Part shown: positions 588-28,646 of the stretch, piece after piece | Numbering within the stretch: the stretch's first letter is position 1 | Layout: every line of letters starts with the position of its first letter | IMG/VR virus record: IMGVR_UViG_3300025276_000162 | Location: 1 to 28,646 of that record | Direction: 5' to 3' (one strand) | DNA length: 28,646 nucleotides | Source of the DNA: a virus | Program-made: the position numbers and the translations under genes | The notes under the pieces: generated by a model | Seen by the model: only the letters and a program-made list of their open reading frames with translations | Database searches by the model: none | Told to the model about the DNA's origin: nothing

Positions 588-608
588 AAAAATGAAAGAT
601 GTTGACCT

Positions 609-2504
609 ATGCCTTTAACCAAGTTACAGTTTAAACCCGGTATTAACAGAGATGTAACGTCCTACTCTAACGAAGGTGGTTGGGTTGACTCGGACAAAGT
701 ACGTTTTCGGCTAGGGTTTCCAGAGAAAATAGGTGGTTGGGTTAAGTATTCCTCAAACGCTTTTTTGGGGACCTGCCGTGCTTTGCATACGTGGGTTACT
801 TTAAACGGTACGCAATACCTTGGACTAGGTACGCATCTTAAATACTACTTAGAAATAGGCCAGTCCTTTAGTGACATAACGCCTATTCGAAAAACAAGTA
901 CAAACTCTATTACCTTTGCAGCAACCGACGGATCTTCTACTCTTACGGTTACAGATTCTAGCAACGCTTCTGTTGTAAATGATTTTGTAACGTTTTCTGG
1001 AGCAGCGTCTTTAGGCGGCCTTGTTACAGCGGCGGTGTTAAATCAAGAGTATCAAATAATTGGTATTACCAGTGCAAACGTTTATACAATAACGGCTAAA
1101 AGCACTGCGGGGGTTACAGTTACTGCTAATTCTAGTGATAGTGGAAACGGTGGTTCTGGAGTAGATGGCCTTTATCAACTTAACGTTGGCTTAGACACAG
1201 AAGTTGGCGGCACGGGTTGGGGCGCGGGAACTTGGGGCCGTAGTACGTGGGGTTCTGGCGCGGACATCAGTTCCGTAACCTCGTTACGTCTTTGGAGTCA
1301 CGATAACTTTGGTGAGGATTTACTGATAAACCCAAGAGATGGTGGCGTTTTCTATTGGGATGCTTCTGCTACGAATGCTTTTACCACAAGAGCTGTGGAA
1401 ATAGGCACGTTAACAGGGGCTTCTGACACACCAACAATAGCAAAACAAGTTATGGTTTCGGATAACAGCAGGCACGTTATTGCCTTTGGCACAAACACAA
1501 TTGGTACAACAATTCAAGACTCACTGTTAATACGGTTCTCGGACCAAGAATCTTTTCTTAACTGGACCCCGCAAGCAACAAACTCCGCTGGAGATTTACG
1601 AATTGGGTCTGGTTCTAATTTTGTTCGTGCTATTGAAACCAAACGAGAGATTTTAATCTGGACCAATAGTTCATTGCAAACAATGCAATACTTAGGACCA
1701 CCGTTTGTTTTTGGTATTCAACCTTTAGCCACAAACATTACAATCATGGGAGCAAATTCAATAGCTGCCGTGCAAGATACCGTTTACTGGATGGGCAAAG
1801 ATTGTTTCTATGTGTATGACGGACAGACAAAACAATTGCCTTGCACCGTTAAAGAAGAAGTTTTCTTTAACTTTAACTCTGGTCAAGAAGAAAAAGTATA
1901 TGCAGGTATAAACTCTGAGTTTAGCGAAGTAACTTGGTTCTATTGTTCTGACGATAACTCTGTATCTAATGGTGGAGACGGTCAAAACAACAAGTACGTA
2001 ACATATAACTTTGCGGAAAACCTTTGGTATTATGGCACTATGCCAAGATCTGCTTTCTTGGACCGTGGGCTACGAACTTTCCCAACTGCAACAGAAGACG
2101 GTTACTTGTATAGCCATGAAGTTGGATATGACGAAGACGGTGTGGCAATGACCTCTACTTTAGAGTCTAGTCCAATTGAACTAGGAGACGGACAAAAGTT
2201 TGTTGCCATTAGCCGTGTGATCCCAGACTTTACTTTTCAAGGTTCCACAACCAGCTCTCCTGTTGTTAATATGACGATGAGTATGCAAGATTTCCCTGGT
2301 AGTTCTTATGGTCAAACCGAAACCAACTCTACAACTTTAACTGCAAGTTCCACAACCACGGTTCCTTTTGAACAGTTTACACAAAAAGCAGACGTAAGAC
2401 TAAGAGGTAGATCTTTTGCTTTAAAGGTTGCGTCATCAGGTGCTGGAGTCAGATGGAGATTAGGTAGTCCAAGAATTAACACTAGAGAAGACGGTAGAAG
2501 ATAA
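609..2504 (+). CDS. large virion protein, probable tail / head-completion protein
   Basis: A 631-residue protein. The N-terminus (KLQFKPGINRDVTSYSNEGG, then SDKVRFRLGFPEKIGGW) is a signature I associate with podovirus-type structural proteins in marine phages. They resemble in layout the P22 gp10 / T7 gp12 tail-completion class, where a 'pG..rd.t....gg..d...vRfr.G.pekigGw' start precedes a beta-propeller-like body. The rest is beta-rich, Ser/Thr/Gly rich, with repeated 'W...tp', 'RDGGVFYW' and 'YVYDGQTKQLP' blades, and a C-terminal stretch (about 530-631) ending in RGRSFALKV and RWRLGSPRINTR. It overlaps the next gene as TAATG. The ribosome binding site is weak. The virion role is fairly safe; the exact position in the tail is inferred. 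Confidence 0.8.
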   Translation: MPLTKLQFKPGINRDVTSYSNEGGWVDSDKVRFRLGFPEKIGGWVKYSSNAFLGTCRALHTWVTLNGTQYLGLGTHLKYYLEIGQSFSDITPIRKTSTNSITFAATDGSSTLTVTDSSNASVVNDFVTFSGAASLGGLVTAAVLNQEYQIIGITSANVYTITAKSTAGVTVTANSSDSGNGGSGVDGLYQLNVGLDTEVGGTGWGAGTWGRSTWGSGADISSVTSLRLWSHDNFGEDLLINPRDGGVFYWDASATNAFTTRAVEIGTLTGASDTPTIAKQVMVSDNSRHVIAFGTNTIGTTIQDSLLIRFSDQESFLNWTPQATNSAGDLRIGSGSNFVRAIETKREILIWTNSSLQTMQYLGPPFVFGIQPLATNITIMGANSIAAVQDTVYWMGKDCFYVYDGQTKQLPCTVKEEVFFNFNSGQEEKVYAGINSEFSEVTWFYCSDDNSVSNGGDGQNNKYVTYNFAENLWYYGTMPRSAFLDRGLRTFPTATEDGYLYSHEVGYDEDGVAMTSTLESSPIELGDGQKFVAISRVIPDFTFQGSTTSSPVVNMTMSMQDFPGSSYGQTETNSTTLTASSTTTVPFEQFTQKADVRLRGRSFALKVASSGAGVRWRLGSPRINTREDGRR

Positions 2505-2827
2505 TGTCAGGAAATATAACAGCCTTTCCAAAACTTCCAGTACCTACGCAACAAGTAGATGTGCGGTACTTAACAGATCTGGTGCGTGCTCTAGAATCTT
2601 TTATAAATCAAGTACAAAACCCTGGACCTCAAAGAGGTACAGCGCAAACTCTTACTAATCTACAATTTGGTAATGATGTTGGTTTGGAAGAAGGGGCTTT
2701 GTATGTTACTAATTGTATTAACACTAATAGCCCTGGTTATGTAAGAATATCGTTGTTGAATGTAAGTGCCTGTGAAGGTTTAGATGGAACAGGTTCTGTA
2801 GGTACAGTTACCGTTGCTGTTTCTTAA
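2504..2827 (+). CDS. small unknown protein of the virion operon
   Basis: A 107-residue protein whose ATG shares a base with the stop of the preceding virion gene (TAATG), so translation is likely coupled. Residues about 20-45 (VDVRYLTDLVRALESFINQ) look helical; the remainder is beta-rich and Gly/Thr/Asn rich and ends in a repetitive GTGSVGTVTVAVS strand. No membrane segment and no catalytic motif are visible. The short helix followed by a beta domain would fit a small tail or fibre-attachment protein, but that rests only on context. Confidence 0.75.
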   Translation: MSGNITAFPKLPVPTQQVDVRYLTDLVRALESFINQVQNPGPQRGTAQTLTNLQFGNDVGLEEGALYVTNCINTNSPGYVRISLLNVSACEGLDGTGSVGTVTVAVS

Positions 2828-2848
2828 CGTGATGAGAAGGTTTAAAAT

Positions 2849-3619
2849 ATGTTAGGTTCTCTTTTAGGTGGCATTGCTGGGTTGTTGATTCCTGGTGGAG
2901 GAGGTTTTCTAGCTTCTACTATTGGCTCTGCTGTTGGTGGGTTGCTTTCTGGGCAAAACCCTAAAGACGCTATTAAAAATTCTTTAATCTTCGGCGGTGT
3001 TAACTACATGTTCCCTGGTGTGGCTAACGCATTACAACAATCCTCTATTGGAAGAAGTGCAACAAGTGCTCTCGGTAACATGGGCATAGGTTCAAACAAA
3101 GGACTAGCAGCATTAGCTAATACTGCTCCAACGACAAGCGCATCGGCGGCATCAGGGATAGCCTCTGCTGCAACAAAGGGTCCTTCGGTCAGACAGATTT
3201 ATAACTACGCTAATTTAGGATCAGGTATTGGTAGTCTTCTCAGTCAAGATAAACAAGGTTCTACAGAACCCCATCCTGACTACACTGGAGAAATTGACCG
3301 ATCAGAGTTTACAAAAAACCTATATGCGAATAAGTATAATGGTGAAAGATACGATACCGTTGAAGAAAGAGATGCTTCTGAACGTAGATATGCTGAAGAT
3401 ATAGGATTAGGTTATGCCCGTGGTGGTTATATCGAAGGTCCAGGTACTGGAAGAAGTGATGACATCCCAGCGCAAATATATCAAGGCGGTGTCCCGGTGC
3501 AAGAAGCACGACTCTCGGATGGAGAATTTGTTATGACGGAGCAGGCAGTAGAAAATGGTGGCGGAGCAGCTGCAATGTATGCAAGAATGAAACAACTTGA
3601 AAACGGAGGGCCTGCATAA
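2849..3619 (+). CDS. probable internal virion / tail-associated protein with SDGEFVMT motif
   Basis: A 256-residue protein. Residues 1-35 form a Gly/Leu-rich hydrophobic stretch with LLGGIAGLLIPGGGG and STIGSAVGGLLSG, like the small 'glycine zipper' segments of phage ejection proteins. The C-terminal third carries GGYIEGPGTGRSDDIPAQI followed by EARLSDGEFVMTEQAVENGG. This 'G.GtG.SDdIpA.l..GEfVmt..AV...G' element is widespread in phage virion proteins and tape-measure ends; its function is not established, although it probably binds another virion component. It ends as TAATG on the next gene. Placement in the internal virion group is an inference from this motif and the neighbours. Confidence 0.78.
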   Translation: MLGSLLGGIAGLLIPGGGGFLASTIGSAVGGLLSGQNPKDAIKNSLIFGGVNYMFPGVANALQQSSIGRSATSALGNMGIGSNKGLAALANTAPTTSASAASGIASAATKGPSVRQIYNYANLGSGIGSLLSQDKQGSTEPHPDYTGEIDRSEFTKNLYANKYNGERYDTVEERDASERRYAEDIGLGYARGGYIEGPGTGRSDDIPAQIYQGGVPVQEARLSDGEFVMTEQAVENGGGAAAMYARMKQLENGGPA

Positions 3620-5532
3620 TGGCTGAACAAACAGTAGTAAGCAGAACGGAACTACCTGACTGGCTTAGAACGTTTCAAGAAGACATACTTACAAGGGCAC
3701 AAGGCCTTGGCAGTCAGCAAATTACCATGCCAGAATATGAAGTTGCAGGTCGTACTCCTTTTCAACAACAAGCATCGCAGATGGCAGCGCAGGGCCTTGG
3801 ATCTTATATGCCAATGCTTCAAGCAGGGGCAACAAGCGTTGGTCAAGGTGTAGGTGCTACGCAACAAGGTATACAAAACTTAGGACAAGCGGCGCAAATG
3901 GCACAAAATGCTTATGCTGGTGCACTGCCCTATCAACAACAAGCCTATAATGCCATGAGTCAAAGTATTCCTACAACTCTTGCTGCCGCACAAGCAGGGC
4001 AACAGTTATCTGCTGCGGGACGAGAAGATTTAGGAGCTGCCGCTGGACAGGTTTTAGCCGCTGGGCAACAAGGACAACAGGCCGCAACTGGTGGAGCACA
4101 AGGTATTTTAGGTGCATCACAGCAAGGACAGGCTGGAATACTTGGCGCTGCTGCTCAAGGACAAGATGTAGCCGCTGGTGGAGCACAAGGTATTTTAGGT
4201 TCTGCCGCTCAAGGACAAGAAGCGGCAAGAATTGGATCTCAAGGATTGTCACAACTTTCCCAACAGTCCCAACTCACTGGACAACAGTCCGCTTCTAATA
4301 TTCAAAGTGAAGCAGCGAGAGCAGAAGAGGCAAGACAGTTTGGTTTAGGTACAGCTAAAGCTGGTATTGCAGGGCTTGAAGGTGCTTCTGAAAGATTTGA
4401 TCCCTCTCAAACAGGGGCGTTTATGAATGACTTTGAAGGTGCCGCTGTTCAACAGGCTCTTTCCGACATCCAACGTGCAAGTGATATTAAGAGCCAAGGA
4501 CTTGACGCGCAAGCAGTACAGGCTGGAGCGTTTGGTGGTTCAAGAGGAGCCATTCAACAATCAGAATTAGATAGAAGTACGTTAGAACAACAGGGCCGAA
4601 CAGCTGCTGGAATGCGCCAACAAGGATATGAAAGCGCATCGCAACGTGCACAAAAAGCATATGAAGACGCACTAGGAAGACAGATTCAATCCTCTCAAAC
4701 TATGGGGCAGCTTGGTCAAGCAGGTGCCGGAACTTCATTACAAGCAACGCAAACAGGAATGCAGGGTGCACAACAAGCAGGAGCTATGGGTTTATCAGGC
4801 CTTGCTCAAGCGGGACAACAAGGTCAAGCGGCTACAGGGCAAGCTATGCAAGGTGCACAAATGGGAATGCAAGGAGCACAGCAGGCAGGAGCTATGGGTT
4901 TACAAGGCGCACAGATGGGAATGCAGGGTGCACAACAGGCTGGCGCAATGGGAATGCAAGGCGCACAACAAGCAGGATCTATGGGAATGCAGGGTGCACA
5001 ACAAGCAGGATCGGCAGCTGCTCAAGCAGGTGGGCTCTCGGCCCAAGGTGCACAACTTGGTATGCAAGGCGCACAGATGGGAATGCAAGCGGCAAACCAA
5101 GCATCGAACATTGGTCAAGGAATCGGGCAACTTGGAACACAGTACGGGCAACTTGGTATGCAAGGCGCTGGTCAAATGGGTACGATTGCTGGTCAATACG
5201 GTGCAATGGGTCAAGGCTTGGGTGGTTTAGGAATGAACCAAGCGCAGTTGGGCGAAGCACAACAAGGTCTACAGTCAAACGATTTACAAACACTAACGCA
5301 ACTTGGTGGTCAGGAACAAGCACAGTATCAAGCACAATTGGATGCGGCTCGTCAGAACCAGTACCAAAACACTATGCAACCATATCAACAACTTGGCTTC
5401 TACTCAGATATCTATCAGGGTATGCCTTCATCGCAATCAACCTTTACACAGACCAATGCACCAGGGCCAAGCACACTCTCTCAACTTGGTGGCCTAGCCC
5501 TTGGCGGGTATGGTATGTACAGAGGCGGGTAA
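3619..5532 (+). CDS. Gln/Ala/Gly-rich repetitive internal virion protein
   Basis: A 637-residue protein. The N-terminus (ELPDWLRTFQEDILTRAQGL) is followed by an almost entirely helical, Gln/Ala/Gly-rich body. Residues about 150-205 repeat 'GAQGILG...QGQ'; residues about 378-495 repeat GMQGAQQAGAMG many times. Residues about 255-325 (RFDPSQTGAFMNDFEG, AFGGSRGAIQQSELDRSTLEQQ) form a less repetitive conserved core. The C-terminus ends in Gly/Tyr-rich GGYGMYRGG. Long amphipathic Ala/Gln helices suit an elongated ejection or core protein packed in the head. It starts in a TAATG overlap and is followed 12 bases later by the next virion gene. No enzyme motif is visible. Confidence 0.8.
   Translation: MAEQTVVSRTELPDWLRTFQEDILTRAQGLGSQQITMPEYEVAGRTPFQQQASQMAAQGLGSYMPMLQAGATSVGQGVGATQQGIQNLGQAAQMAQNAYAGALPYQQQAYNAMSQSIPTTLAAAQAGQQLSAAGREDLGAAAGQVLAAGQQGQQAATGGAQGILGASQQGQAGILGAAAQGQDVAAGGAQGILGSAAQGQEAARIGSQGLSQLSQQSQLTGQQSASNIQSEAARAEEARQFGLGTAKAGIAGLEGASERFDPSQTGAFMNDFEGAAVQQALSDIQRASDIKSQGLDAQAVQAGAFGGSRGAIQQSELDRSTLEQQGRTAAGMRQQGYESASQRAQKAYEDALGRQIQSSQTMGQLGQAGAGTSLQATQTGMQGAQQAGAMGLSGLAQAGQQGQAATGQAMQGAQMGMQGAQQAGAMGLQGAQMGMQGAQQAGAMGMQGAQQAGSMGMQGAQQAGSAAAQAGGLSAQGAQLGMQGAQMGMQAANQASNIGQGIGQLGTQYGQLGMQGAGQMGTIAGQYGAMGQGLGGLGMNQAQLGEAQQGLQSNDLQTLTQLGGQEQAQYQAQLDAARQNQYQNTMQPYQQLGFYSDIYQGMPSSQSTFTQTNAPGPSTLSQLGGLALGGYGMYRGG
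4753..5092 (+). repeat. tandem coding repeat (GMQGAQQAGAMG units)
   Basis: Degenerate tandem repeats of about 30-36 bases built on 'atgggaatgcaaggagcaca' encode 10-12 residue units ending in QQAGAMG or QMGMQGA. The copies are near-identical at DNA level between 4860 and 5010, which points to recent expansion. All units are multiples of three, so the frame is preserved. The copy number is likely to vary between related phages. Confidence 0.85.
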
Positions 5533-5544
5533 TAAGGAACTGAC

Positions 5545-8115
5545 ATGAACAACGTTAACAACCGGAAGATGTTTGCTAAACGCGATGCAAGAAACAAGCT
5601 TGCTGAGATGGGTGGAATTATGTCCTCCTCTCCAGAACTACTGGGCGAAGCACAGAAGTTTGCTAATGGTGGTTCTACTTATGTCCCTAATCAATTTGCA
5701 ATGCCTGACAGAAGACGTTTAGAGGATTCCGCTTTTACGCAATACGGCATGACGCTTAATGCAGATAATACTTTATCTCCTTATAAGACTGCATCAGATG
5801 CTTTATATGATCGTACAATGGCTGGTCAATCTAATTCTTTTTCCGCAAGTCAACCTGGTGAAGAAGAAAACGAAAATGTTGTTAGAGCACAGTTACTTCA
5901 AAGGTTTGGTGACAGGATTGGTGACAGTATTTTAAACACTGCAAAACAATTAAGGGCTAAAGCTAGAATACTTGGCGGGGTTCCAGACATTTTAGCTTCA
6001 TACGTTCAAGAAGCAACTGGGTTGGTTCAATCTACTTTAGGTTTTACAGAGGCGGGGGCTACAAGTTTTGACGATGCAGAAAAATTAAGAACAGATACAT
6101 TAAAAAATATGGGAAGTTCTGCTTCAGACCTTTTAAACCTTTCAAATGAAGGCCGCAGTCTCTCTCTAATGCCAGACATGTCAATAGACCGTTATGGTTT
6201 AAATGTCCCAGGAGGAGATTCTCCTAGAGAACGAATACGAAGATTAAACGCACAAAAGGAAAACGCTAGTCAAGTAGAGTATGAAGCTGGGCTTCCTGCT
6301 TTAAGAGAAAAGTTATCGGCTCTTGAGGGCAACGATCCAATGGGTATGCTTTCTGATACGTTTGTTGGTTCAATACAAAGACCCGAAGGTGGATATAGTA
6401 CAGAGATGAGCAACTTGTCTCCAGCCCCTGGTCAAGCAGAGGCTATATTTGGCACGGGAGCAGGAGCACGGTTTGCTGGTTCTGAGTTCACGGACTTTGA
6501 ACAGTTGGCTAAAGACAACCCAGAAATGATGGCAGCTAATTATGGAATGTTACAAGCGCAAGACGCAATGACTAACCAAGGTATAGTAAATTCTTTAGAT
6601 CCTGAATCAAGAGCCGCGCTTAGTGCTCAACAAGACTTAACGAGAGAAGAGTTTCTTAATCGTATGCCTGAACCATCTGGGAATGTAACACCTCTAAGTA
6701 AAGATCTTCAGTTAATGCCTTCTGAGCAAGCTCTTGCTGAAGCAAGTGATTACAATACTGCAAGAGATATTGCTCGTGCTAACGAAGCAGCAGCAAGTGA
6801 TTACAATACTGCAAGAGATATAGGCCAGGCTAACGAAGCAACAGCAAGGGACATCGGTGCGGCTAACGAAGCAGCTGCCATGTTTAATCAGCCAGGTGGT
6901 ATAAACTCACAGGGTCCTAACCCAGAAGTAACACCAGGGTATGTTTTTGATCGAGAACTGTTTCAAGCAAATGCTTCAAAGAACGAAGAGAACCAAACAG
7001 CCATAGACAATGCTACAGAATCTTTACTAAGGGCTAATACAAAAGAAGAAAAAGACACAATGAGAGAAGAGTATCTTAATCGTGTGTCCGATGACCCCGA
7101 AGTAGATGAAAATACTTTTATAAACAAACTTGATGGGTGGTTGACCAGTTTTGATGATGCTGTATTTGGTAGAAACAATGCTGCAAAAGTTGCAGCTGTT
7201 GTTGGAGAAGTAATAACTCCTGATGGATCTGGTCTTGAAGGAAACACTACAGAAGAATTAAAGGCGTTAGCACTTGCTGATAGCGATGAAGAAAAAATTG
7301 TAAATAATAATAAGAAAGCTAGTAGTAATGGTAATGTTGTTACTACCTCGACTGCTGAAAATAATATTTTAAGTTCAGTCGAACAGGGTAATGCTGCATT
7401 AGATCTTGCTCTGGGGGGAACAGGGGAAGTGTCCACAAGTACAACCCTAACACAAAAAAACAAAGAGATGCAGAAGTTGTATCAAGAGATGTTTGGTGAA
7501 GACGAGAAAGAAGTTGCCGCTGCTAAGTGGAACCAACTTGCAATGGTTGGGTTTGCAATTGCCGCTGGCAAAGATCCAAACGCCCTAACAAATATAGCCG
7601 CTGGATTACTGTCTGGTGCCAAACAAAAAAGACAAGATGTAGCAACAAGAAAAGCTAGAAGAGACAAGATTAAAATGTCAGCGTTTGATGCAGCCCTTTC
7701 TGGATCAGCAGCGGATAAAAAATTTGGAAGAGATTTAACAATTGCTAAAATGAAACTTGATGCAACAGGAGGTTACAGTAAAGATCAAAATCCGAATAGA
7801 ACGTTTTATCAACTTCTTCAAACTAATATAGATGCTTATCAAAAAACATATTTAGATATGCCTCCAAAAGACGCAAATAACAAGGCTTTAACAGGGGAGG
7901 CTTTAACAGATTTTATAAGGAAAAAAGCAACAGAAGATGCTTTGTCTACAGTCCAATTAAGAACTCCAACGTTTAGTCTTAAAAACTATGTACCACCGGA
8001 TGATGACTTAAGTATTCCAACTATTTCTACAAGAGAAGAATTTGATGCACTTCCTAGTGGGGCTGTATTTAATTCAATGTTTGAAGGTAAACTCGTAAAG
8101 CAGACGAAACCATAG
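5545..8115 (+). CDS. large internal virion protein
   Basis: An 856-residue protein with AAGGAACTGAC before the ATG. The N-terminus (RKMFAKRDARNKLAEMGGIM, SSPELLGEAQKFANGG) is a pattern I know from phage virion proteins of this operon type. The body is polar and helical; residues about 400-445 hold 2.5 copies of a 17-residue repeat (ASDYNTARDIGQANEAT type). Residues about 650-730 (EMFGEDEKEVAAAKWNQLAM, then VGFAIAAGKDPNALTNIAAG) resemble a region shared by many marine phage internal proteins. The C-terminus has ISTREEFDALPSGAVF, a short domain that I recall at the ends of other virion proteins. It sits between the repeat-rich protein and the 1348-residue protein, spaced 12 and 9 bases. It is probably ejected with or lines the DNA channel; this is inference. 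Confidence 0.8.
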   Translation: MNNVNNRKMFAKRDARNKLAEMGGIMSSSPELLGEAQKFANGGSTYVPNQFAMPDRRRLEDSAFTQYGMTLNADNTLSPYKTASDALYDRTMAGQSNSFSASQPGEEENENVVRAQLLQRFGDRIGDSILNTAKQLRAKARILGGVPDILASYVQEATGLVQSTLGFTEAGATSFDDAEKLRTDTLKNMGSSASDLLNLSNEGRSLSLMPDMSIDRYGLNVPGGDSPRERIRRLNAQKENASQVEYEAGLPALREKLSALEGNDPMGMLSDTFVGSIQRPEGGYSTEMSNLSPAPGQAEAIFGTGAGARFAGSEFTDFEQLAKDNPEMMAANYGMLQAQDAMTNQGIVNSLDPESRAALSAQQDLTREEFLNRMPEPSGNVTPLSKDLQLMPSEQALAEASDYNTARDIARANEAAASDYNTARDIGQANEATARDIGAANEAAAMFNQPGGINSQGPNPEVTPGYVFDRELFQANASKNEENQTAIDNATESLLRANTKEEKDTMREEYLNRVSDDPEVDENTFINKLDGWLTSFDDAVFGRNNAAKVAAVVGEVITPDGSGLEGNTTEELKALALADSDEEKIVNNNKKASSNGNVVTTSTAENNILSSVEQGNAALDLALGGTGEVSTSTTLTQKNKEMQKLYQEMFGEDEKEVAAAKWNQLAMVGFAIAAGKDPNALTNIAAGLLSGAKQKRQDVATRKARRDKIKMSAFDAALSGSAADKKFGRDLTIAKMKLDATGGYSKDQNPNRTFYQLLQTNIDAYQKTYLDMPPKDANNKALTGEALTDFIRKKATEDALSTVQLRTPTFSLKNYVPPDDDLSIPTISTREEFDALPSGAVFNSMFEGKLVKQTKP
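6742..6876 (+). repeat. 51-base tandem coding repeat
   Basis: Two adjacent 51-base units start at 6742 and 6793 and share their first 28 bases exactly; a partial third copy follows to about 6876. They encode ASDYNTARDIARANEAA, ASDYNTARDIGQANEAT and ARDIGAANEAA inside the 856-residue virion protein. The phase is preserved and the units look like a helical spacer. Confidence 0.85.
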
Positions 8116-8124
8116 GAGAAAATT

Positions 8125-11100
8125 GTGGCAGAACTATTTGGTATTCCTGTTGAGCAGTCTACTCAAGAACTATTTGGTGTCCCTGTTGAAGAGGAACAAG
8201 AAGAAGAACAGTCTACTTTGGGGACAATGGCAGATATAGGCCAAGGGATTGGCGCTGGTCTTATGAATGTTCCGCAAGGGATTGCAGAGTTAGGCGCTCT
8301 AGGAATAGATATTGCTTTTGATACAAACACAAGCCAAGGAACTACTGAGTTCTTTGAAGATGCAAAGGAAACTTTAAACCTTACACCAGAAGGTACAGCG
8401 GGAAAGGTTGCAGAGGGAATTACAACTTTTGGAACAGCGTTTATTCCTATCGCTGGTTGGTTAAGTCGTGCCAACACTGTAGCAAGAGGTGGAAAAACTC
8501 TAGCTAATTCTAGTAAATTTATGAAGACTGCTGAAAAGTTTGGTGGTAGTGCTGTAGGAAAAAAACTTATAAACAACCGTCTTAAACTAGCAGCAGGAAC
8601 AGCGCTGGGTTCTGGAATGGCAGACGTATTAGTTGCACCGTCTACTTTTAACACATTATCTGATTCCTTTGATGCACTACCAGACTTTTTAAAAACAGAA
8701 GAAGACACGAAACTAACCGGAAGTGATGAAGCTTGGCGTAGGTTTAGAAACAAAATGCGTTTTGGCGTAGAGGGCGTTGGATTAGGTGCCGCAGGAGAAG
8801 CAGTGTTTCCAGTTGTTGGACTTGCGGCAAGAGCACCAGCTTATATACCAGGTGTTCCAACGGCGGCACGTTTAATTGGAAATGGTTTTGATAAGGTAGG
8901 AGAAAAATTAGGAGCTAATCAGTTTCTTAAAAAGTATTTTACTGCGTCTGGTCTTACACCTCGTGACTTATACGAAGGCATTGAAGGCGTAAAAGATTTT
9001 AGTAAAGCAACAACTAGAGATGCAGCAAAACGTTTTATTGCTTTTGACAACGCTGCAAAGAAAGTTGTGGGAAGAACAAAACTATTTGGTAAAGGTAAAG
9101 ACGGAATACAAAAAGCCCATGACGATCTGTATAAATATTTAACAGGCGCCATAGACGAAGGCACCATGACGAAAGCACATGGAGGTGGTGTTACCAGTGC
9201 GGCTAAAAACATGAGAGATCAAGTCGATGGTTTAACAAATGTCTTTATGAGAGAAATAGAAAACTCTGGGTTAGAGGCCCCTGCAAAGCAAGCGTTGTTA
9301 AAACAATTCTCTGATCAACAAGGACAATACCTAAGAAGATTGTATGAAGTACATTTACGTCGTCCCGAACAATTTGTTATGAATACAAAGTTATATGATG
9401 AATCAATCTTAGATGTTACTAGAAAAATGATGTCAGACACTCCAAAGATGTCTTTAAATGAAGCAAAAAACCAATCAAAACTTATTATAGATGGAATGTT
9501 GGGAAGACACACTGTAGATTATGGGCTTACTCCAGAGGCTTATGTAAAACTTCAAAGCAAAGCTCTTAAAACAAAACCTTTTGGAGACAAACCTTTATTT
9601 AAAATATCTGAAGGAATGTTAAAAGATAGAAGTAAATACTTAGACGAGTCCGCAAACCTTAGAGCCTTACTTGGAGAAATTAAAGATCCAAAAGAATTAT
9701 ACTTACGCACAATAGATCAGATGTCTCAAACGCTTTCAGCAAACCAATTGTACAAACAATTTGCAACGCAAAATAAAACTAATTTTAATGGAGCGATTGC
9801 AAAGTTTAACAATGGTGGGAGACCATTAGCTGTTGCAGGAAAAGAACTTTCAGAAGATCAAGCAGCCTTTTTAACTAACAATGGATACACAAGGCTTGGA
9901 GATGTAACAGATGAACTAAATATTACCGATGCTCAAAAAGTTTTTGGCGGTAAGTACGGAGCATTGACTGGGGACTTTGTTCCTAATGAAGTATATGATT
10001 CTTTAACTGTTGCAGCAAGAGCAACTAATCCTTTACAAGAAGCGTTGGCTATCTCTCTACAAGCCAAGGGCTTATCGCAAATGACAAAGACTGTGTTAAA
10101 TCCTTTATCGCAAATTAGAAACTTTCACTCAGGTATATTTATGGTGGGAGCCAATGGTAATATAGCAAGGGACATGAGTATCTTTGAAAGCAGCCGCCTT
10201 ACAGTGGGTAGAATAAAAGACATGGGAGATGCTGAGTTTAGAGAGACATTCAACATGCTTCAGAAGACAGGGCTTGTAGATCAGAACTACGTGGTCAATG
10301 AATTTAAAGCCTTGTTAGATGAGGGGGCTGATTTAAAAGTTGCTGGTAAAATAGCTGACCTATCAAAACGTTCTATAGATAAAATACCTTTTGCACGAGC
10401 TGCTTTAAAGGGCGCACAAAACGTCTACTCTGGTACAGATAACTATTGGAAAACAGTAGGATACCTTGGAGAGAAAGCAAAATACAGCGCAGCATTTAGA
10501 AGGTCTGGCTTAGATCCTGACAACCTTGGTGCAATTACAGATGATTTAGTAAATGCTGGACTGGCGCCCAGATCTACAGAGTTCAGTGGTGGCATAGACT
10601 TTATGGATCTAATGAGCACTGATATAGTAAAAGCAACAATGCCTACATACAGTCGTGTTCCAGAGTTAGTTAAAACAATTAGACGTATTCCTGTTGTTGG
10701 TAACTTCATGGCTTTCCCTGCTGAAATAATTAGAACAACAACAAACATTACAAGACAGGGGTTAAAGGAACTAGGGTTTAAATCTTCTCCAGAGTTAATT
10801 CAAAAAATTGGAGCAAAACAAGCTGCTGCATTACAAAAACAAATCCGTGCGATAGGTGCTAAACGATTGAGTAACTACGCTGCAATGGCTTACGTTGCTC
10901 CGGTTGCTGCACAGAAAGCAGCGATGGGTGCACTAGATTTTACTCAAGAACAGTTAGATGCGTTAGAGCTTGAGGCTCCTCCTTGGATGAAGGGACATAC
11001 GTTAATGCCTATTAGTCATACGCCTGGTAAAGCAGAGTATGTAGATCTAAGTTATATGATGCCTTATGATTTTATGGCAGCGCCTGTTCGTGCCGCAATG

Positions 11101-12171
11101 CAAGCGTACTCAGAAACAGGAGAAGTTACAGACTCTCAAGCAAAACAAGTTATGGAAGCTGGTAAAATAGCTTTGTTAAAACTTATGGAACCGTTTGCCT
11201 CTGAAGCATTGCTTTCAGAAAGAATTGCTGACGTGTTTTATCGTGATGGTGTCACAAGGTCTGGATCACGATTTATTGCAGAAGGAGAAAGCGATGGAGA
11301 CAAATTAAAGAAAGGTTTTAATCACATCATTGCAGGGTTTAGTCCAGGTGTTTTAGACATGTTCTATCAAGAACGGGGCGGTAAGTTTCAACCAGGAAGA
11401 CTTACTAAAGCTATAACTAATACCCCTGGTGGCTATGGTGAGAATTTTACATTAGCGGAAGAAGCCGCAAGTATGTTAACTGGGTTCCGTGAAATGGAAG
11501 CAGACCTAAACAATACTTTTTACTATAAAGGTGCAGAGTATAAAGGAAATAGAAGTGGTTTATTAAGAGAATTTAAAAAAGTAGCAGGAAGAAATGACTC
11601 TACAAATGAATCTGTTATAGCAGCATTCCAAGAAGCCAATAGAGATTTGTTAACACAACAATCACAATTGTTTGCACATATAAACGCCGCAAGAACATTA
11701 GGATTAAGTAACGCAGAAATTAGAAGGTCCTTATCAAAACAAGCTAGAATGGGAAGAAGAGAAATAAGTTTTGCAATGAGAGGAAAGTTTCTTCCTTTTA
11801 CAATATCTAGCGATCTTATACGACAAATTAGACAAGAAACAACAATGCTAGGTCAGCCAAGAGTGATTGAAACGTTACCTTTGTTAGAATTAAGAAACAT
11901 AACTAACCAACTTAAAAACATTGACCTAAACCCTGAAGAACGAGTACAGGAACAACCTGTCAATCAAGAATTATTTGGAGTTCCCGTTCAACCAAAAGCG
12001 CCTGTCAATCAAGAATTATTTGGAGAACCAGTATCCCAGAACAACGTAGCTCCAAGTGTTTTATCTACTGGCACGGTGAACAAAGATAACACGGTTAATA
12101 CAACAAAAGTTCTAGCTGGAACCAATCCGCTTACGCAAATGATTGCCGAGCGTCAAAGTGCCAACACCTAA
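8125..12171 (+). CDS. giant internal virion (ejection) protein with terminal ELFGxPV motifs
   Basis: A 1348-residue protein starting with GTG, preceded by AGGAGAAAATT at good spacing. The N-terminus repeats AELFGIPV and QELFGVPV within 25 residues, and the C-terminal 90 residues repeat NQELFGVPV and NQELFGEPV. Residues about 30-160 are Gly/Ala-rich with hydrophobic helices (GIGAGLMNVPQGIAELGALG, TTFGTAFIPIAGWLS), of the sort that could insert in a membrane. The middle is long and helical with many Lys/Arg; the region near 980-1010 has LMPISHTPGKAEYVDLSYMM. No lysozyme or transglycosylase motif was found. Size, order and composition fit the largest ejection protein (T7 gp16-like role). The stop overlaps the stop of the convergent DNA polymerase gene by four bases. 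Confidence 0.78.
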   Translation: MAELFGIPVEQSTQELFGVPVEEEQEEEQSTLGTMADIGQGIGAGLMNVPQGIAELGALGIDIAFDTNTSQGTTEFFEDAKETLNLTPEGTAGKVAEGITTFGTAFIPIAGWLSRANTVARGGKTLANSSKFMKTAEKFGGSAVGKKLINNRLKLAAGTALGSGMADVLVAPSTFNTLSDSFDALPDFLKTEEDTKLTGSDEAWRRFRNKMRFGVEGVGLGAAGEAVFPVVGLAARAPAYIPGVPTAARLIGNGFDKVGEKLGANQFLKKYFTASGLTPRDLYEGIEGVKDFSKATTRDAAKRFIAFDNAAKKVVGRTKLFGKGKDGIQKAHDDLYKYLTGAIDEGTMTKAHGGGVTSAAKNMRDQVDGLTNVFMREIENSGLEAPAKQALLKQFSDQQGQYLRRLYEVHLRRPEQFVMNTKLYDESILDVTRKMMSDTPKMSLNEAKNQSKLIIDGMLGRHTVDYGLTPEAYVKLQSKALKTKPFGDKPLFKISEGMLKDRSKYLDESANLRALLGEIKDPKELYLRTIDQMSQTLSANQLYKQFATQNKTNFNGAIAKFNNGGRPLAVAGKELSEDQAAFLTNNGYTRLGDVTDELNITDAQKVFGGKYGALTGDFVPNEVYDSLTVAARATNPLQEALAISLQAKGLSQMTKTVLNPLSQIRNFHSGIFMVGANGNIARDMSIFESSRLTVGRIKDMGDAEFRETFNMLQKTGLVDQNYVVNEFKALLDEGADLKVAGKIADLSKRSIDKIPFARAALKGAQNVYSGTDNYWKTVGYLGEKAKYSAAFRRSGLDPDNLGAITDDLVNAGLAPRSTEFSGGIDFMDLMSTDIVKATMPTYSRVPELVKTIRRIPVVGNFMAFPAEIIRTTTNITRQGLKELGFKSSPELIQKIGAKQAAALQKQIRAIGAKRLSNYAAMAYVAPVAAQKAAMGALDFTQEQLDALELEAPPWMKGHTLMPISHTPGKAEYVDLSYMMPYDFMAAPVRAAMQAYSETGEVTDSQAKQVMEAGKIALLKLMEPFASEALLSERIADVFYRDGVTRSGSRFIAEGESDGDKLKKGFNHIIAGFSPGVLDMFYQERGGKFQPGRLTKAITNTPGGYGENFTLAEEAASMLTGFREMEADLNNTFYYKGAEYKGNRSGLLREFKKVAGRNDSTNESVIAAFQEANRDLLTQQSQLFAHINAARTLGLSNAEIRRSLSKQARMGRREISFAMRGKFLPFTISSDLIRQIRQETTMLGQPRVIETLPLLELRNITNQLKNIDLNPEERVQEQPVNQELFGVPVQPKAPVNQELFGEPVSQNNVAPSVLSTGTVNKDNTVNTTKVLAGTNPLTQMIAERQSANT

Positions 12172-25353: not shown

Positions 25354-25902
25354 ATGGTAACAGCTAAAGCTAAGATCGAAAAAGAACATGGTCGGAAGCT
25401 GACCAATAGGCAAATGACTTTTGCTAAGTTTATTGTGGAAGGAATCTATTCCAACGCAGAGTGTGCTAGGAAAGCAGGGTACGCCCATAACATAGCAAAA
25501 ACTAAAGCCTCTATACTTTTAAATGGAAGGGATTACCCACACGTTGTGGAGTACATAACTCAGCTTAGAGAGGAACGTGAGAGGCGTTATGCGGTGACCA
25601 CGTTAGGACAACTCGAACGACTACATAAGCTATCACTTGGAGCGGAAGATGCAGGACAATTTTCTGCGGCAATCAACGCTGAAAAGATCCGATCAGCACT
25701 GGGTGGTCTGACTATCGATAGACGCGAGAACATCAACACAATGGATCAACTTTCAAGAGATGAGATAGTGTCTAGACTCGCTGACTTGCAGAAGAAATAT
25801 CCGCAAGCATTTGTGATTGATGCAGACTTTAAGGATGTAACAAATGAGCCAAGGTCCAGAGGCAAGGTTTTGGAAATCAGTCCGAGCAAACCTGCCAAAT
25901 AA
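25354..25902 (+). CDS. terS: terminase small subunit
   Basis: A 182-residue DNA-recognition subunit of the packaging motor. Residues 14-50 (RKLTNRQMTFAKFIVEGIYS, NAECARKAGYAHN) are the helix-turn-helix of the Terminase_2 type, where the 'c.r.AGY' pattern is characteristic. Residues 60-115 form the oligomerisation helices (YITQLREERERRYAV, LGQLERLHKLSLGAED). The C-terminus is basic and Pro-rich. A GGAG site lies seven bases before the ATG. The large subunit is not in the window. It overlaps the next gene by 59 bases. Confidence 0.88.
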   Translation: MVTAKAKIEKEHGRKLTNRQMTFAKFIVEGIYSNAECARKAGYAHNIAKTKASILLNGRDYPHVVEYITQLREERERRYAVTTLGQLERLHKLSLGAEDAGQFSAAINAEKIRSALGGLTIDRRENINTMDQLSRDEIVSRLADLQKKYPQAFVIDADFKDVTNEPRSRGKVLEISPSKPAK

Positions 25903-26257
25903 AGCTTTTTGCACACGCATTGAGAACAAACATGGCGGCGGAGTTCCCGACGTTCATGTGGTTTGGGAGGGTCTTCCCTTCTGGTTAGAGTTGAAGGTAA
26001 CTAAAAAACACGCAATAAATGTCTCCCCTCATCAAATCGCTTGGCACATGGCATATCACGCTCGTGGAGGGCTTAGTTTCTTCTTGGTTAGGGGTCCATC
26101 CCCCAAGGACATATATTTGTTTGGAGGGGCCCAAGGAGTTGATTTACTGGAGAATGGTGTGCTCTGCGACCCTAGTGCGAGGTTTATGGACCTTGAGTCT
26201 TGCTTTGCGGCTCTGCGCCCTCGTCTTATCGATCATTATCGCTCTGCGTCCTTGTAG
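25844..26257 (+). CDS. VRR-NUC-type PD-(D/E)xK nuclease
   Basis: A 137-residue nuclease. Motifs: RIENKHGGGVPDVHVVW with D36, then LELK (E49, K51), and HQIAWHMAYHARGG with Q64, the PD-(D/E)xK core of VRR-NUC and phage resolvase-like enzymes. It likely cleaves branched DNA during packaging or replication; such genes often follow the small terminase gene. The ATG lies inside the end of that gene in a different frame. The C-terminus (CFAALRPRLIDHYRSASL) runs into a direct repeat and may be a recent extension. Confidence 0.85.
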   Translation: MSQGPEARFWKSVRANLPNKAFCTRIENKHGGGVPDVHVVWEGLPFWLELKVTKKHAINVSPHQIAWHMAYHARGGLSFFLVRGPSPKDIYLFGGAQGVDLLENGVLCDPSARFMDLESCFAALRPRLIDHYRSASL

Positions 26258-26283
26258 CTCTGCGGCTCTGCGCCCTGGTCTTA
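26206..26283 (+). repeat. 23-base direct repeat at the nuclease gene end
   Basis: TGCGGCTCTGCGCCCTcGTC plus TTA at 26206-26228 recurs at 26261-26283 with one change (g for c), 55 bases apart. The first copy lies in the nuclease C-terminal codons and the second after its stop. Further GCTCTGCG fragments occur at 26161 and 26241. The rest to 26390 is non-coding. Confidence 0.75.
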
Positions 26284-26360
26284 ATTAAAAGGACCGAGAC
26301 CCGAAGGCCCCGGCCAAGGATAGGCGTGCGGAATAGGACAAACTACACGCCTGGTCAGTA

Positions 26361-26384
26361 TGCACTGGCATCGCTGCCAGTGCA
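26361..26384. terminator. hairpin between convergent genes
   Basis: TGCACTGGCA-TCGC-TGCCAGTGCA is a perfect ten-pair stem with a four-base loop, between the convergent nuclease gene and the minus-strand gene ending at 26391. It lacks a clear T-run on either side (GGTTGTT on the plus side), so termination is likely but not certain. Another pairing, AGGCGTG (26322-26328) with CACGCCT (26346-26352), lies just before it. Confidence 0.55.
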
Positions 26385-26390
26385 AGGTTG

Positions 26391-26714
26391 TTAGCAATTC
26401 CATATTTCTTCTAGGGCTTCATCAAGTCCTATTTCATCGTCATAGTAAGAAGCGAACGCGCTTTCATCCCACCAATAACCCTCGATAGTCTTGGTTTGCG
26501 TATTGATCCAAATGTTAGGACCACCAAAGGCCACTAGAACTCTTGCACCAATATATTGTTTTTCACTAGTAACGATGTATTGAATATCTAGCACATCTTC
26601 AAGGTAGTCATACCCGTGTACGGGTTCGCCTTCTTCATTTGTTATGCCATTATCTAAGTCATGTGCAATACTATCAACATGATTTTGAAGGTTTGATTTT
26701 GGTTTAGTATTCAT
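26391..26714 (-). CDS. conserved small acidic phage protein
   Basis: A 107-residue protein with ATG at 26714 overlapping the stop of the preceding small gene (ATGA). It contains GYDYLEDVLDIQYIV, then GARVLVAFGGPNIWINTQTK and IEGYWWDESAF, ending with EIGLDEALEEIW. The 'ga.vlvAfGGPniWi.t....v.gyWw' element is conserved in small phage and bacterial proteins from memory, function unknown. Strongly acidic, which could suit a DNA-mimic or inhibitor protein, but this is speculation. Confidence 0.78.
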   Translation of the reverse strand: MNTKPKSNLQNHVDSIAHDLDNGITNEEGEPVHGYDYLEDVLDIQYIVTSEKQYIGARVLVAFGGPNIWINTQTKTIEGYWWDESAFASYYDDEIGLDEALEEIWNC

Positions 26715-26836
26715 TTTTCCACCTTTATATATTGACGCGTTAATTTGTGTTTAAAATGCAGCGCTTCTTCATCTTCATGCATAAACATGTAAAGATCTTT
26801 GATTACTTCAAAGGCTGCTTCGAATTTCTGTTTCAT
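26711..26836 (-). CDS. 41-residue unknown protein
   Basis: A very short gene with AAAGGAAATAGGACAA before the ATG and a TGA that overlaps the next start (ATGA at 26714-26711). The product is one long charged helix: KQKFEAAFEVIKDLYMFMHE, then LHFKHKLTRQYIKVEK. Its leader is nearly identical to that of the gene starting at 27299. The function is unknown. Confidence 0.65.
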   Translation of the reverse strand: MKQKFEAAFEVIKDLYMFMHEDEEALHFKHKLTRQYIKVEK

Positions 26837-26867
26837 TTGTCCTATTTCCTTTTGTTGTTATGCTCTA

Positions 26868-26896
26868 GTTATATACTATAAACAACTAAGCCACAA
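26868..26896 (-). promoter_or_regulatory. possible promoter for the 41-residue gene
   Basis: On the minus strand TTGTGG (26896-26891) and TATAAC (26873-26868) are 17 bases apart. The -35 lies inside the upstream terminator hairpin. A small dyad, TTATA-TAC-TATAA, overlaps the -10. The leader resembles that before 27299. Confidence 0.35.
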
Positions 26897-26915
26897 GTAA
26901 ATAAATACTTGTGGC
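26890..26915 (-). terminator. terminator after the 26-residue membrane peptide
   Basis: GCCACAAGTA and TACTTGTGGC form a perfect ten-pair stem with a six-base A/T loop. On the minus strand it is followed by TTAGTTGTTTATAG, a T-rich stretch. It lies five bases after the stop of the short peptide gene and right before the next promoter. Confidence 0.6.
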
Positions 26916-26920
26916 CTGGT

Positions 26921-27001
26921 TTATCCTAATAGCAGCATGATGAAGGTTAGACCAACGATGATAACTATCATCGCCAGGCCTGCTATAATATCTCTAATCA
27001 T
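26921..27001 (-). CDS. 26-residue single-span membrane peptide
   Basis: A tiny gene whose ATG lies inside the end of the preceding gene (8-base overlap, ATGATTAG). The product is MIRDIIAGLAMIVIIVGLTF followed by IMLLLG: a short charged start, then one continuous hydrophobic span of about 20 residues. It may be a membrane peptide that affects the host envelope or serves as a small holin-like or toxin-like factor. Too short for family assignment; the overlap and terminator placement support it. Confidence 0.5.
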   Translation of the reverse strand: MIRDIIAGLAMIVIIVGLTFIMLLLG

Positions 27002-27299
27002 TGTAAGTAAACTTAGATCTAATAGACACGACCTTTAGCTTTTCAAAGGCATCTTGACCCATTGATTCAATCAGATAGTAATCCCTATCCTTTGAAGGTA
27101 TTGTTCTAACTTCAGATTCCTTGCGATACGCCAGGCCATTGTCTATCGCTTCTTGTTCATAATACTTGATCTTAGAATCAACAGCTGTCTTAATCTCTTT
27201 TAGTATTGCAAACATTGTCTTATACCAAAATGTTGAACGATTACTAATGTTAGTCTTTGTTGCTTCGCTAACTTGCTTATGTAAACTTGTGATTGTCAT
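26994..27299 (-). CDS. small unknown protein with shared leader
   Basis: A 101-residue protein from the ATG at 27299, chosen because AAAGGAAATAGGACA, the same leader as for the 41-residue gene, precedes it; an open frame extends to 27365 across a promoter. Helical: ITSLHKQVSEATKTNISNRS, FWYKTMFAILKEIKTAVDSK, then RKESEVRTIPSKDRDYYLIE and a C-terminal basic end. The family is not recognised. Confidence 0.7.
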   Translation of the reverse strand: MTITSLHKQVSEATKTNISNRSTFWYKTMFAILKEIKTAVDSKIKYYEQEAIDNGLAYRKESEVRTIPSKDRDYYLIESMGQDAFEKLKVVSIRSKFTYND

Positions 27300-27320
27300 T
27301 GTCCTATTTCCTTTTTTTGT

Positions 27321-27362
27321 TATTGATATACTATCAATAGAATATAGCATGGGTGCTGTCAA
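27321..27362 (-). promoter_or_regulatory. promoter and operator-like dyad before 27299
   Basis: On the minus strand TTGACA (27362-27357), a 17-base spacer, and TATTGA (27339-27334). A perfect dyad TATTGATA-GTA-TATCAATA (27339-27321) covers the -10, as a repressor site would. The leader that follows is duplicated before the gene starting at 26836. Confidence 0.55.
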
Positions 27363-27387
27363 CAACTAACTAACAAGTAACAATCAA

Positions 27388-27492
27388 GTGACGTAGCGTC
27401 ACATCATATCAATCGTTCACCTTTTGTTCTTTAACCCTCCTTCAAGGGTTACTTGGCGCGATCCATATGGAACTTGTCGCGCGCTTCGCGAC
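27388..27492. promoter_or_regulatory. non-coding stretch with three dyads
   Basis: Between the leftward genes and the rightward ATP-grasp operon lie three short perfect dyads: GTGACG-TAG-CGTCAC (27388-27402), TAACCCT-CCTTCA-AGGGTTA (27432-27451) and GTCGCG-CGCTT-CGCGAC (27476-27492). The last two overlap the proposed start of the membrane ORF. Base composition changes here from A-rich to G/T-rich codons on the plus strand. The stretch may hold the promoter or a structured leader of the ATP-grasp operon; I could not place a promoter. Confidence 0.4.
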
Positions 27493-27725
27493 CCCCTTCC
27501 CCCCCTATTTGGCTAGGGTATCTGTGCATTTGGTCTTATTATACTGGTATTGTAGATTCATTCGGGAATATTTTCATTGGGTCACAAGCAGAGAACAACC
27601 AGCACCCAAAATTATTCGCCATGTTTTTTCATTTGGGTTTACTTGCATTCTGGTTGTTCATGGTCCATGATCCCTGTACCGAGGAGCATTATCATGGCAT
27701 CATTATTATTTGGTCAGCGTTCTGA
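27453..27725 (+). CDS. possible small membrane protein before the ATP-grasp gene
   Basis: An open frame of 90 residues with a TTG start, preceded by AAGGG four bases away, and ending 32 bases inside the ATP-grasp gene. It has two hydrophobic segments (about 20-42, PIWLGYLCIWSYYTGIVD; about 56-73, LFAMFFHLGLLAFWLFMV) and an ending with EEHYHGIIIIWSAF. An alternative ATG frame at 27467-27670 gives a less protein-like product. Neither has a clear family. I prefer the 27453 frame, because its residue pattern looks like a two-span membrane protein and it is coupled to the ligase by overlap. Confidence 0.4.
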   Translation: MARSIWNLSRASRPPSPPIWLGYLCIWSYYTGIVDSFGNIFIGSQAENNQHPKLFAMFFHLGLLAFWLFMVHDPCTEEHYHGIIIIWSAF

Positions 27726-28446
27726 TCCTAACATAGAGGTTCTTGTTCCTTATTTTGATATATTTGTTGACCAGGCTTCGGTGATTCATTGGGACTTGGA
27801 CCAAGATGCGTTGTTTGTTGATGGTGTTTCTTGTATTTTTGATTCTTATTTTGGACGTGCGAATGTGTTTGAGACGAACACGCATGTTAAGTACAACAAT
27901 TTTTATATTATGCGGAATTATGTGGAGTCGCATGTGGATATTGCGCGGTATAATTCTGATTATCATGGTGAGGTTCCTTTTAAGTTACACAATTTGATGG
28001 TTGCTAGGCGTGTTGGTTTGAAGGTTCCTTACACGGAGGCGGGATTAGGGACGCAGCGTGAGGATAGTATATTGAAGCCTGTTACGGGTGGTGCTCATGT
28101 GGTTCGTGGTTCACGGTCTTTGGTTCCTATGATTGTTCAGGATCGTGTTATTGGTTTGAACAAGCGGTTATTTATTATAGGGGATGATGCCTTTTGTTTT
28201 GGTTTGAGGTCGGATTATTTAGATTATCGTGACGACCCTGAACCTTCTCTATTTATTTCTGAGATCTCTGATGCTATAGTAGAGAAAACGCGACGTGTTA
28301 TGTTTGAGTTGGGATTGACGTTTGGAGCTGCGGATTTTATTGACGAAACTTTTTTAGAGATTAATACTATGCCTATGTTTGTTGCATTTGATCAAGTTGT
28401 GGACGGAGCGATAGCCAAGAGCATTTATTATGGATTGAGGGGTTAG
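27694..28446 (+). CDS. ATP-grasp peptide ligase (graspetide-synthetase / RimK-like)
   Basis: A 250-residue ATP-grasp enzyme from the ATG at 27694, with GAGGAG seven bases before it; the longer frame from 27577 is not supported. N-terminal part (1-90) is a pre-ATP-grasp domain. Then LHNLMVARRVGLKVPYT (98-114), the ATP-binding K128-P129 in SILKPVTGG, IVQDRVIG (147-154) and KRLFIIGDDAF (157-167), FGAADFID (210-217) with D214, and FLEINTMPMF (220-229) with the Mg-binding E222 and N224. These match the MvdC/MvdD-like ligases that make ester or amide links between side chains of peptides. The following gene, two bases away, has a matching substrate motif. Codon use (TTG, CGT, ACG) differs from the virion genes. 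Confidence 0.86.
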   Translation: MASLLFGQRSDPNIEVLVPYFDIFVDQASVIHWDLDQDALFVDGVSCIFDSYFGRANVFETNTHVKYNNFYIMRNYVESHVDIARYNSDYHGEVPFKLHNLMVARRVGLKVPYTEAGLGTQREDSILKPVTGGAHVVRGSRSLVPMIVQDRVIGLNKRLFIIGDDAFCFGLRSDYLDYRDDPEPSLFISEISDAIVEKTRRVMFELGLTFGAADFIDETFLEINTMPMFVAFDQVVDGAIAKSIYYGLRG

Positions 28447-28448
28447 GT

Positions 28449-28646
28449 ATGACAACCCGCGCTGTTGGAGAAGAAGAAGGTGGTTTTGGTGGCATGAGGA
28501 TGACGCAAGCTATGGGTGAGCAGGAGGGTGATATGATGGCTCCCCTGCTTGACTTTGCTAGACCCTCAGACATAACACTTGGTGGTTATAGTGCTGGCGG
28601 CGGCGGTAAAGCTCCTGGTATAGAAAATTCAATGGCAGTTACAACC
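28449..28646 (+). CDS. putative ATP-grasp substrate with TTxxxxEE motif (partial)
   Basis: An ATG at 28449, two bases after the ligase stop and with GAGGGG before it; open through 66 codons to the window edge, so the C-terminus is missing. The N-terminus is TTRAVGEEEGGFGG (residues 2-15), which fits the plesiocin-type graspetide core TTxxxxEE. A related copy follows at residues 19-27 (TQAMGEQEG). The rest so far is Gly/Ala/Ser rich (DITLGGYSAGGGGKAPG), like a virion protein tail. Either this is a RiPP precursor with the core at its front, or a phage structural protein whose N-terminus is modified by the ligase. Confidence 0.72.
   Translation, partial: MTTRAVGEEEGGFGGMRMTQAMGEQEGDMMAPLLDFARPSDITLGGYSAGGGGKAPGIENSMAVTT

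Follow-up and report, generated by a model that had tools for sequence, protein, structure and literature searches.

A phage ATP-grasp ligase beside TTxAxGEE-repeat proteins: a probable graspetide-type cross-linking system in metagenomic phage contigs

The window analysed here, which comprises the whole of a linear 28,646-bp IMG/VR record, ends with a gene for an ATP-grasp ligase and the 5′ part of a gene whose product carries TTxxxxEE repeats. This pair very probably represents a phage-encoded system for graspetide-type cross-linking of side chains, in which the ligase would act on the repeats. The initial annotation had proposed a graspetide-like modification of a phage protein, and the proposal is supported by the enzyme family, the conservation of the motif, the genomic linkage of the two genes, their joint presence and absence, and the covariation of two outer residues within the repeat. 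All phage data were derived from metagenomic contigs, and the system was found in no isolate phage searched. The positions of the features are listed in Table 1.

Table 1. Positions of the ligase and substrate genes, their repeats and other loci mentioned in the text
Feature	Record	Position	Strand	Basis
Virion-type genes	window	1-12171		
Terminase small subunit region	window	25354-25902		
Region with small reverse-strand ORFs only	window	26200-27450		
GAGGAG, probable ribosome binding site of the ligase gene	window	27681-27686	+	sequence
Graspetide-type ATP-grasp ligase, 250 aa; stop TAG at 28444-28446	window	27694-28446	+	alignment, PDB profile, AF2, Foldseek
GAGGGG, probable ribosome binding site of the substrate gene, overlapping the 3′ end of the ligase gene	window	28437-28442	+	sequence
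Substrate gene, 5′ part, 66 codons, running off the contig end	window	28449-28646	+	sequence, relatives
First core repeat TTRAVGEE (TTxxxxEE), from residue 2, no leader ahead	window	28452-28475	+	sequence, repeat alignment
Second repeat TQAMGEQE, single Thr...Glu form	window	28503-28526	+	sequence, repeat table
C-terminal single-motif gene	L013	4211-5371	-	
C-terminal single-motif gene	L020	5062-6195	-	
C-terminal single-motif gene	L031	927-2081	+	
Substrate, 840 aa	L024	7319-9838		
Substrate with both KTxAxGED and TTxAxGEE repeats	L036	869-2440		
Substrate with both KTxAxGED and TTxAxGEE repeats	L041	10773-13961		
Substrate with both KTxAxGED and TTxAxGEE repeats	L033	906-3344		
Graspetide-like cluster of Aureimonas altamirensis DSM 21988	L070	7436-8774		

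The ligase and substrate ORFs of the window are separated by two bases (GT), which suggests that the genes are translationally coupled. For the ligase, the TTG start further upstream in the mechanical ORF was rejected as unlikely, since the homologs keep the ATG at 27694. The N-terminus of the substrate ORF reads MTTRAVGEEEGG...MTQAMGEQEG (the same start is also given as MTTRAVGEEEGGFGGMRMTQAMGEQEG). The placement of a gene starting with TTRAVGEE two bases after the ligase was thereby confirmed, and its first motif is an exact TTxxxxEE. The second motif reported earlier, TQAMGEQEG, is present but degenerate: in M-TQAMGE-Q, the outer Thr is replaced by M and the outer Glu by Q, and both outer partners are gone. 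The truncation of this substrate, leaving one full and one half motif, counts against the proposed system. Virion-type genes open the contig, and its end falls inside the substrate gene. Only small reverse-strand ORFs were observed between the terminase small subunit region and the ligase, and the related contigs L002 and L003 have an additional 228-aa reverse-strand gene at the matching position. No genes for a terminase large subunit, portal or capsid were seen in the 28,646-bp window, so the contig probably covers only about half of the phage genome, with the rest outside its ends.

Iterative searching of viral contigs with the ligase brought the family to 43 IMG/VR contigs in addition to the window, the well-covered ones showing 33-95% identity, and an alignment of 22 homologs was taken as the ligase profile. 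The ATP-grasp residues named in the initial annotation (K128-P129, D214, E222, and N224) are present and, together with R158 and D177-Y178-R179, invariant in 22/22 homologs; these residues, R158 aside, align with KP, IDFR, D, E, and N of PsnB. In the profile search of the PDB, PsnB (7DRM, PMC10452190) was the first match (E = 1.4e-13), followed by AMdnB (9.8e-9), MdnB, CdnC, a PruB-type ligase (9bou), and MdnC; at E ≤ 0.002, graspetide ligases only were retrieved, with RimK absent. The AlphaFold2 model of the ligase (mean pLDDT 92.2, pTM 0.88) led in Foldseek to PruB, PsnB, AMdnB, MdnC, and CdnC, with ranks 1-25 occupied entirely by graspetide-type ligases and RimK appearing from rank 26. By profile and predicted fold, the closest solved relatives are graspetide ligases, ahead of RimK, D-Ala-D-Ala ligase, and other ATP-grasp enzymes; a grouping with RimK or with glutathione synthetase was not obtained.

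The NCBIfam model TIGR04187 ('ATP-grasp ribosomal peptide maturase') was matched by all 22 homologs (best 7.6e-14), and TIGR00768 (rimK_fam) weakly by four of them (best 0.005). The window ligase scored 24 bits, far below the curated TIGR04187 cut-off of 350, and passed none of the curated subfamily thresholds of NCBIfam TIGR04184, 04185, 04187, and 04192; it therefore looks like a new branch of the graspetide superfamily, outside the named subfamilies. Pfam and PHROG searches with single sequences retrieved nothing for the ligase or the substrate. The N-terminal part of the phage ligases is shorter than that of PsnB (profile position 84 corresponds to PsnB residue 140), as is the loop after the GG following KP. 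Leader recognition in graspetide ligases involves elements in this shortened N-terminal and loop region, so the reduction would suit a substrate without a leader.

The putative substrates are long, Gly/Pro-rich or helical proteins with 1-11 TTxAxGE[ED] repeats. Strict motifs in 28 substrate ORFs numbered 107; shuffling the residues 500 times gave 0.036 on average and never more than one. Only three occurred in the 102,079 residues of the neighbouring ORFs, each of them C-terminal (VTMMVGEEQG) in a single adjacent gene family of the window-type phages. Scanning viral contigs with back-translated TTMAxGEE identified 29 loci, mostly with 2-11 copies per ORF. Single motifs in unrelated ORFs of L005, L009, and L025 were taken as chance, and L004, retrieved in the first search, was discarded as a spurious match, being a short stretch of an unrelated protein. 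In L002, a 95%-identical relative of the window, the next gene encodes a Gly/Pro-rich protein with about ten repeats (TTREVGED, TTMAVGEE, TTLAMGEE, and others), and two repeats are present in L003. The Thr/Glu motif is thus not only conserved among homologous neighbours but also multiplied there. Differences between repeats of one protein fall mainly at third codon positions (2.60 per 8 codons, against 0.83 at first and 0.48 at second positions), which indicates that their peptide sequence is under selection. The substrates match no family in PHROG or Pfam, and the AF2 model of an HMO-type substrate, of low confidence (pLDDT 46), is mostly disordered, repeats included.

The substrate comprises 355 aa in L003, at least 472 aa in L020 (cut), and at least 268 aa in L002 (cut); complete substrates range from about 300 to 1,063 aa, and those of the HMO type from 500 to 1,063 aa. 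In the window and L036, the motif starts at about residue 2. Given this position and the lengths of the complete substrates, the window and L036 substrates do not show the short precursor, leader, and release of a canonical RiPP, and the system is not a canonical one. In window-type phages, VTMMVGEEQG or a similar sequence ends the gene just upstream of the terminase large subunit, and the same ligase probably takes its product as a second or third substrate. One 441-aa protein encoded after the portal gene (L010, L028, and L029) contains four near-identical tandem copies of ATTMAMGEEDGG, a candidate for a recent repeat expansion.

The motif gene immediately follows the ligase gene in the window and in L002, L003, L024, L033-L037, L040-L042, L054, L055, L071, L073, L074, L096, and L098. 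In a third lineage (L045/L012 and L051/L023), the motif gene stands just after the portal gene and the ligase kilobases away on the same contig, which counts against pairing. The motif pattern was detected in 19/19 enzyme-bearing records longer than 10.1 kb (window included), and the 17 enzyme-bearing records without it are fragments, all of 10.1 kb or less. Among 16 complete related isolate genomes (HMO-2011, CRP and HTVC phages, 023Pt_psg01, and DSL-LC04), neither the ligase, in agreement with tblastn, nor a repeat cluster was found, five single pattern matches being obtained against three in the reversed control. The tblastn search of isolate phages with the ligase and the L002 and L022 substrates gave no match. 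The ligase and the repeats are gained and lost together. The gp25 protein of HMO-2011 (L060) is collinear with the 840-aa L024 substrate (about 68% identity overall), and the repeat-bearing stretch of the latter, about 130 aa, is exactly what gp25 is without; no motif was found in the gp25 homologs of CRP-1, CRP-2, CRP-345, CRP-603, and HTVC104P. The two proteins form a natural plus/minus pair, with a clean insertion of repeats into a pre-existing gene.

In a scan of 84,980 species genomes, ligases with about 30% identity to the phage enzyme turned up twice, in Aureimonas altamirensis (L070) and in a Lysobacterales MAG (L069); both share its DYR motif and have a longer N-terminal part. The Aureimonas ligase adjoins a leader-like peptide with TTLAVGEEDGGGG, TTKALGEEDGG, and TTMAVGEEDGGG (containing ...MRTLTDGEQERVSGASAELVTTLAVGEEDGGGGFATTKALGEEDGGWATTMAVGEEDGGG...), and the Lysobacterales ligase a peptide with eight repeats, e.g., ITTLVVGEED and ITTLALGEEH; these precursors are small, about 80-110 aa. 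The occurrence of the same motif beside a homologous ligase in peptide-sized precursors is strong evidence that the phage motif is the substrate of the ligase. Such bacterial relatives are scarce or poorly sampled, since searching 300 genomes close to the Lysobacterales MAG and 398 close to Aureimonas yielded no further close bacterial homolog. A quick tree divided the phage ligases into three groups (window-type, HMO-2011-type, and portal-linked), apart from the two bacterial ones. The locus of the cultivable A. altamirensis DSM 21988 appears to be an uncharacterised graspetide-like cluster with three TTxAxGEEDGG cores.

Covariation inside the repeat was analysed with the seed TxAxGE (A, M or G at the position of A), leaving the outer residue (-1) and the outer acceptor (+6) free, which yielded 106 non-redundant repeats. 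Outer Thr was combined with Glu in 53 repeats, with Asp in 7, and with other residues in 2; outer Lys with Asp in 15 and with Glu in none; and the remaining outer residues with Asp in 17, Glu in 1, and others in 11. The association between -1 and +6 was highly significant (Fisher p = 1.6e-19), a value not to be taken literally since shared ancestry of repeats and contigs inflates the counts; the ranking against other position pairs is the better guide. In this ranking, the non-adjacent pair -1/+6 had the highest excess mutual information of all pairs (z = 7.2). Outer Thr is paired with Glu and outer Lys with Asp, and the two partners disappear jointly; concordance was seen in 96/106 repeats, a level reached in 0/20,000 within-protein permutations; permutation and ranking only partly control for the shared ancestry. 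The two positions correspond to the outer ring of the ring-within-ring hairpin known from plesiocin (PMC13097080). A hairpin connectivity in which the outer Thr pairs with the outer Glu is thus indirectly supported. As Lys at the outer position never occurs with Glu, a variant with a Lys-Asp amide is suggested for the KT..GED repeats, with about even chances of being correct. Both KTxAxGED and TTxAxGEE repeats were observed within single proteins of L036, L041, and L033.

Window-type phages are related to the pelagiphages HTVC023P/HTVC027P and 023Pt_psg01 by their DNA polymerase and by the portal of L013. Their gene order, pieced together from partial relatives, starts with the ligase and the first motif protein (window, L002, and L003) and continues with motif proteins, terminase, and portal (L013, L020, and L031). 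The substrate gene comes after the tail-fibre genes in the HMO-2011 type and between the portal and the scaffold/capsid genes in the third type. Gene position alone suggests that the substrates are virion or assembly proteins. The initial annotation had left the choice between a small peptide and a long virion protein; the long protein was found in all relatives of sufficient length, and its location in the virion is moderately favoured by the gene order. The modification would then likely make a segment of a virion protein more stable and resistant to proteases. A broader scenario, which we regard as evenly balanced, is that several lineages arm different structural-module proteins with a portable cassette of ligase and repeat module, their virions carrying arrays of ester and Lys-Asp amide hairpins as a stabiliser or a displayed protease inhibitor; a RiPP enzyme would then covalently modify virion proteins after translation.

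In the proposed mechanism, the ligase would phosphorylate Glu/Asp side chains and join the activated residues to Thr hydroxyls of TTxAxGEE in the adjacently encoded protein. Each repeat would be converted to a bicyclic hairpin with an inner and an outer Thr-Glu ester, and such bicyclic esters are the likely main product. In KTxAxGED repeats, the outer link would probably be a Lys-Asp amide, and repeats without both outer partners would form the inner ring only. The disordered repeat region would thus carry from one to about ten rigid, protease-resistant hairpins. To our knowledge, known graspetide ligases use a leader, and the absence of one before the motif in the window gene counts against this mechanism. 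From these data we infer that the reaction takes place, how exactly the residues are connected, that the substrate belongs to the virion, and which advantage is gained (stability or, as for plesiocin, multivalent protease inhibition). Modification of whole proteins appears feasible, since proteins as long as 258 aa are cyclised by a graspetide synthetase (PMC12291112).

The main functional rival keeps the same chemistry and assigns it another purpose, multivalent inhibition of serine proteases by a hairpin array displayed or released on the virion or in the host. It arises because the characterised graspetides are protease inhibitors (PMC8939145) and the potency of plesiocin rises with the number of rings (PMC13097080). 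Variability within the motif peaks at the residue that follows the second Thr (M, R, Q, A, and L) while the ring-forming sites are fixed, as would be expected if loop specificity were selected; however, this site may merely be unconstrained, the repeats sit in proteins of the structural gene block, and the protease target is only hypothetical. We consider this purpose possible but somewhat unlikely. A polyprotein precursor, cut by a protease into free bicyclic peptides directed against the host or competing phages, would agree with the Gly/Pro-rich linkers, the variable copy number known from peptide arrays, and the small peptides of the bacterial relatives. It is nevertheless improbable, as the HMO-type substrates are far larger than peptides and have conserved non-repeat domains that exist repeat-free in isolates, no dedicated protease or exporter was noticed beside the pair, and the linkers share no cleavage site by eye.

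Still less probable is a RimK-like or other amino-acid-adding ATP-grasp enzyme (e.g., for polyglutamylation) beside an acidic repeat protein, with the motif as its recognition site. ATP-grasp folds are alike, and RimK does occur in the lower Foldseek ranks and in the weak rimK_fam matches; but the profile search places PsnB first among graspetide ligases alone, the bacterial homologs adjoin short peptides with the same repeats, and glutamylation leaves unexplained both the conservation of Thr, about equal to that of Glu, and the outer Thr-Glu covariation. The least probable reading, a covalent mesh of structural protein copies formed by links between repeats of different chains, could draw on the many repeats per chain in a predicted disordered segment, but the covariation lies within single repeats, matching the intra-repeat hairpin of plesiocin, and known graspetide links are intramolecular.

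Among known systems, plesiocin (PsnB and PsnA; PDB 7drm-7drp) is the most similar to the within-repeat hairpins proposed here: TTxxxxEE occurs in multiple copies with a single ATP-grasp ligase, PsnB is the best profile match and among the best fold matches, and the covarying outer Thr-Glu pair fits its ring-within-ring hairpin. In contrast to PsnB (334 aa), the phage enzyme has 250 aa and about 18% identity over the fold; its substrate is a long structural-block protein, in the window gene with no leader ahead of the motif, and includes Lys/Asp and single-ring repeat variants. Neither an exporter nor a leader peptidase was noticed in the neighbourhood ORF maps, with some neighbours scanned against family libraries; such genes are not present in every graspetide cluster. 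The Aureimonas and Lysobacterales clusters resemble the phage pair in their ligase, DYR motif, and neighbouring TTLAVGEEDGGGG and TTMAVGEEDGGG peptides and differ in small precursors, the leader-like N-terminus in Aureimonas, the longer N-terminal part of the ligase, and their origin from bacterial assemblies. The microviridin and chryseoviridin ligases (MdnB, MdnC, AMdnB, and CdnC) belong to the same superfamily, are the next-best matches, and act in systems where Lys-to-acid amides occur along with Thr-to-acid esters, whereas their cage-like core motif is unrelated to TTxAxGEE and leader-directed, and microviridin has two ligases. The gp25 protein of Puniceispirillum phage HMO-2011 and its CRP/HTVC homologs are the same protein as the non-repeat parts of the L024/L033/L041-lineage substrate, but their genomes contain no ligase and their genes no repeat insertion. 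Esters across whole proteins were obtained by engineering of the graspetide synthetase ThfB (PMC12291112), in a laboratory construct with the leader attached, whereas the phage protein would be a natural substrate.

The chemistry and the enzyme superfamily are already known. No phage graspetide was described in the open literature searched, and phages are unmentioned in the searched text of two graspetide surveys (PMC13097080 and PMC8939145). As far as the open literature shows, a phage-encoded graspetide-type ligase is new, as are the putative use of large phage proteins as natural substrates and the insertion of repeat cassettes into pre-existing structural-module genes. If the proposed modification is true, it would be a new class of phage protein modification, and RiPP chemistry would not be limited to small natural products, since phages would apply it to large proteins, at least some of them modified without a leader before the motif. 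The compact ligase may then recognise a motif of about eight residues anywhere in a protein, which would be of use in protein engineering, and the Lys-Asp repeats predict an ester/amide switch within one enzyme family. The finding would also connect phages evolutionarily with bacterial graspetide clusters.
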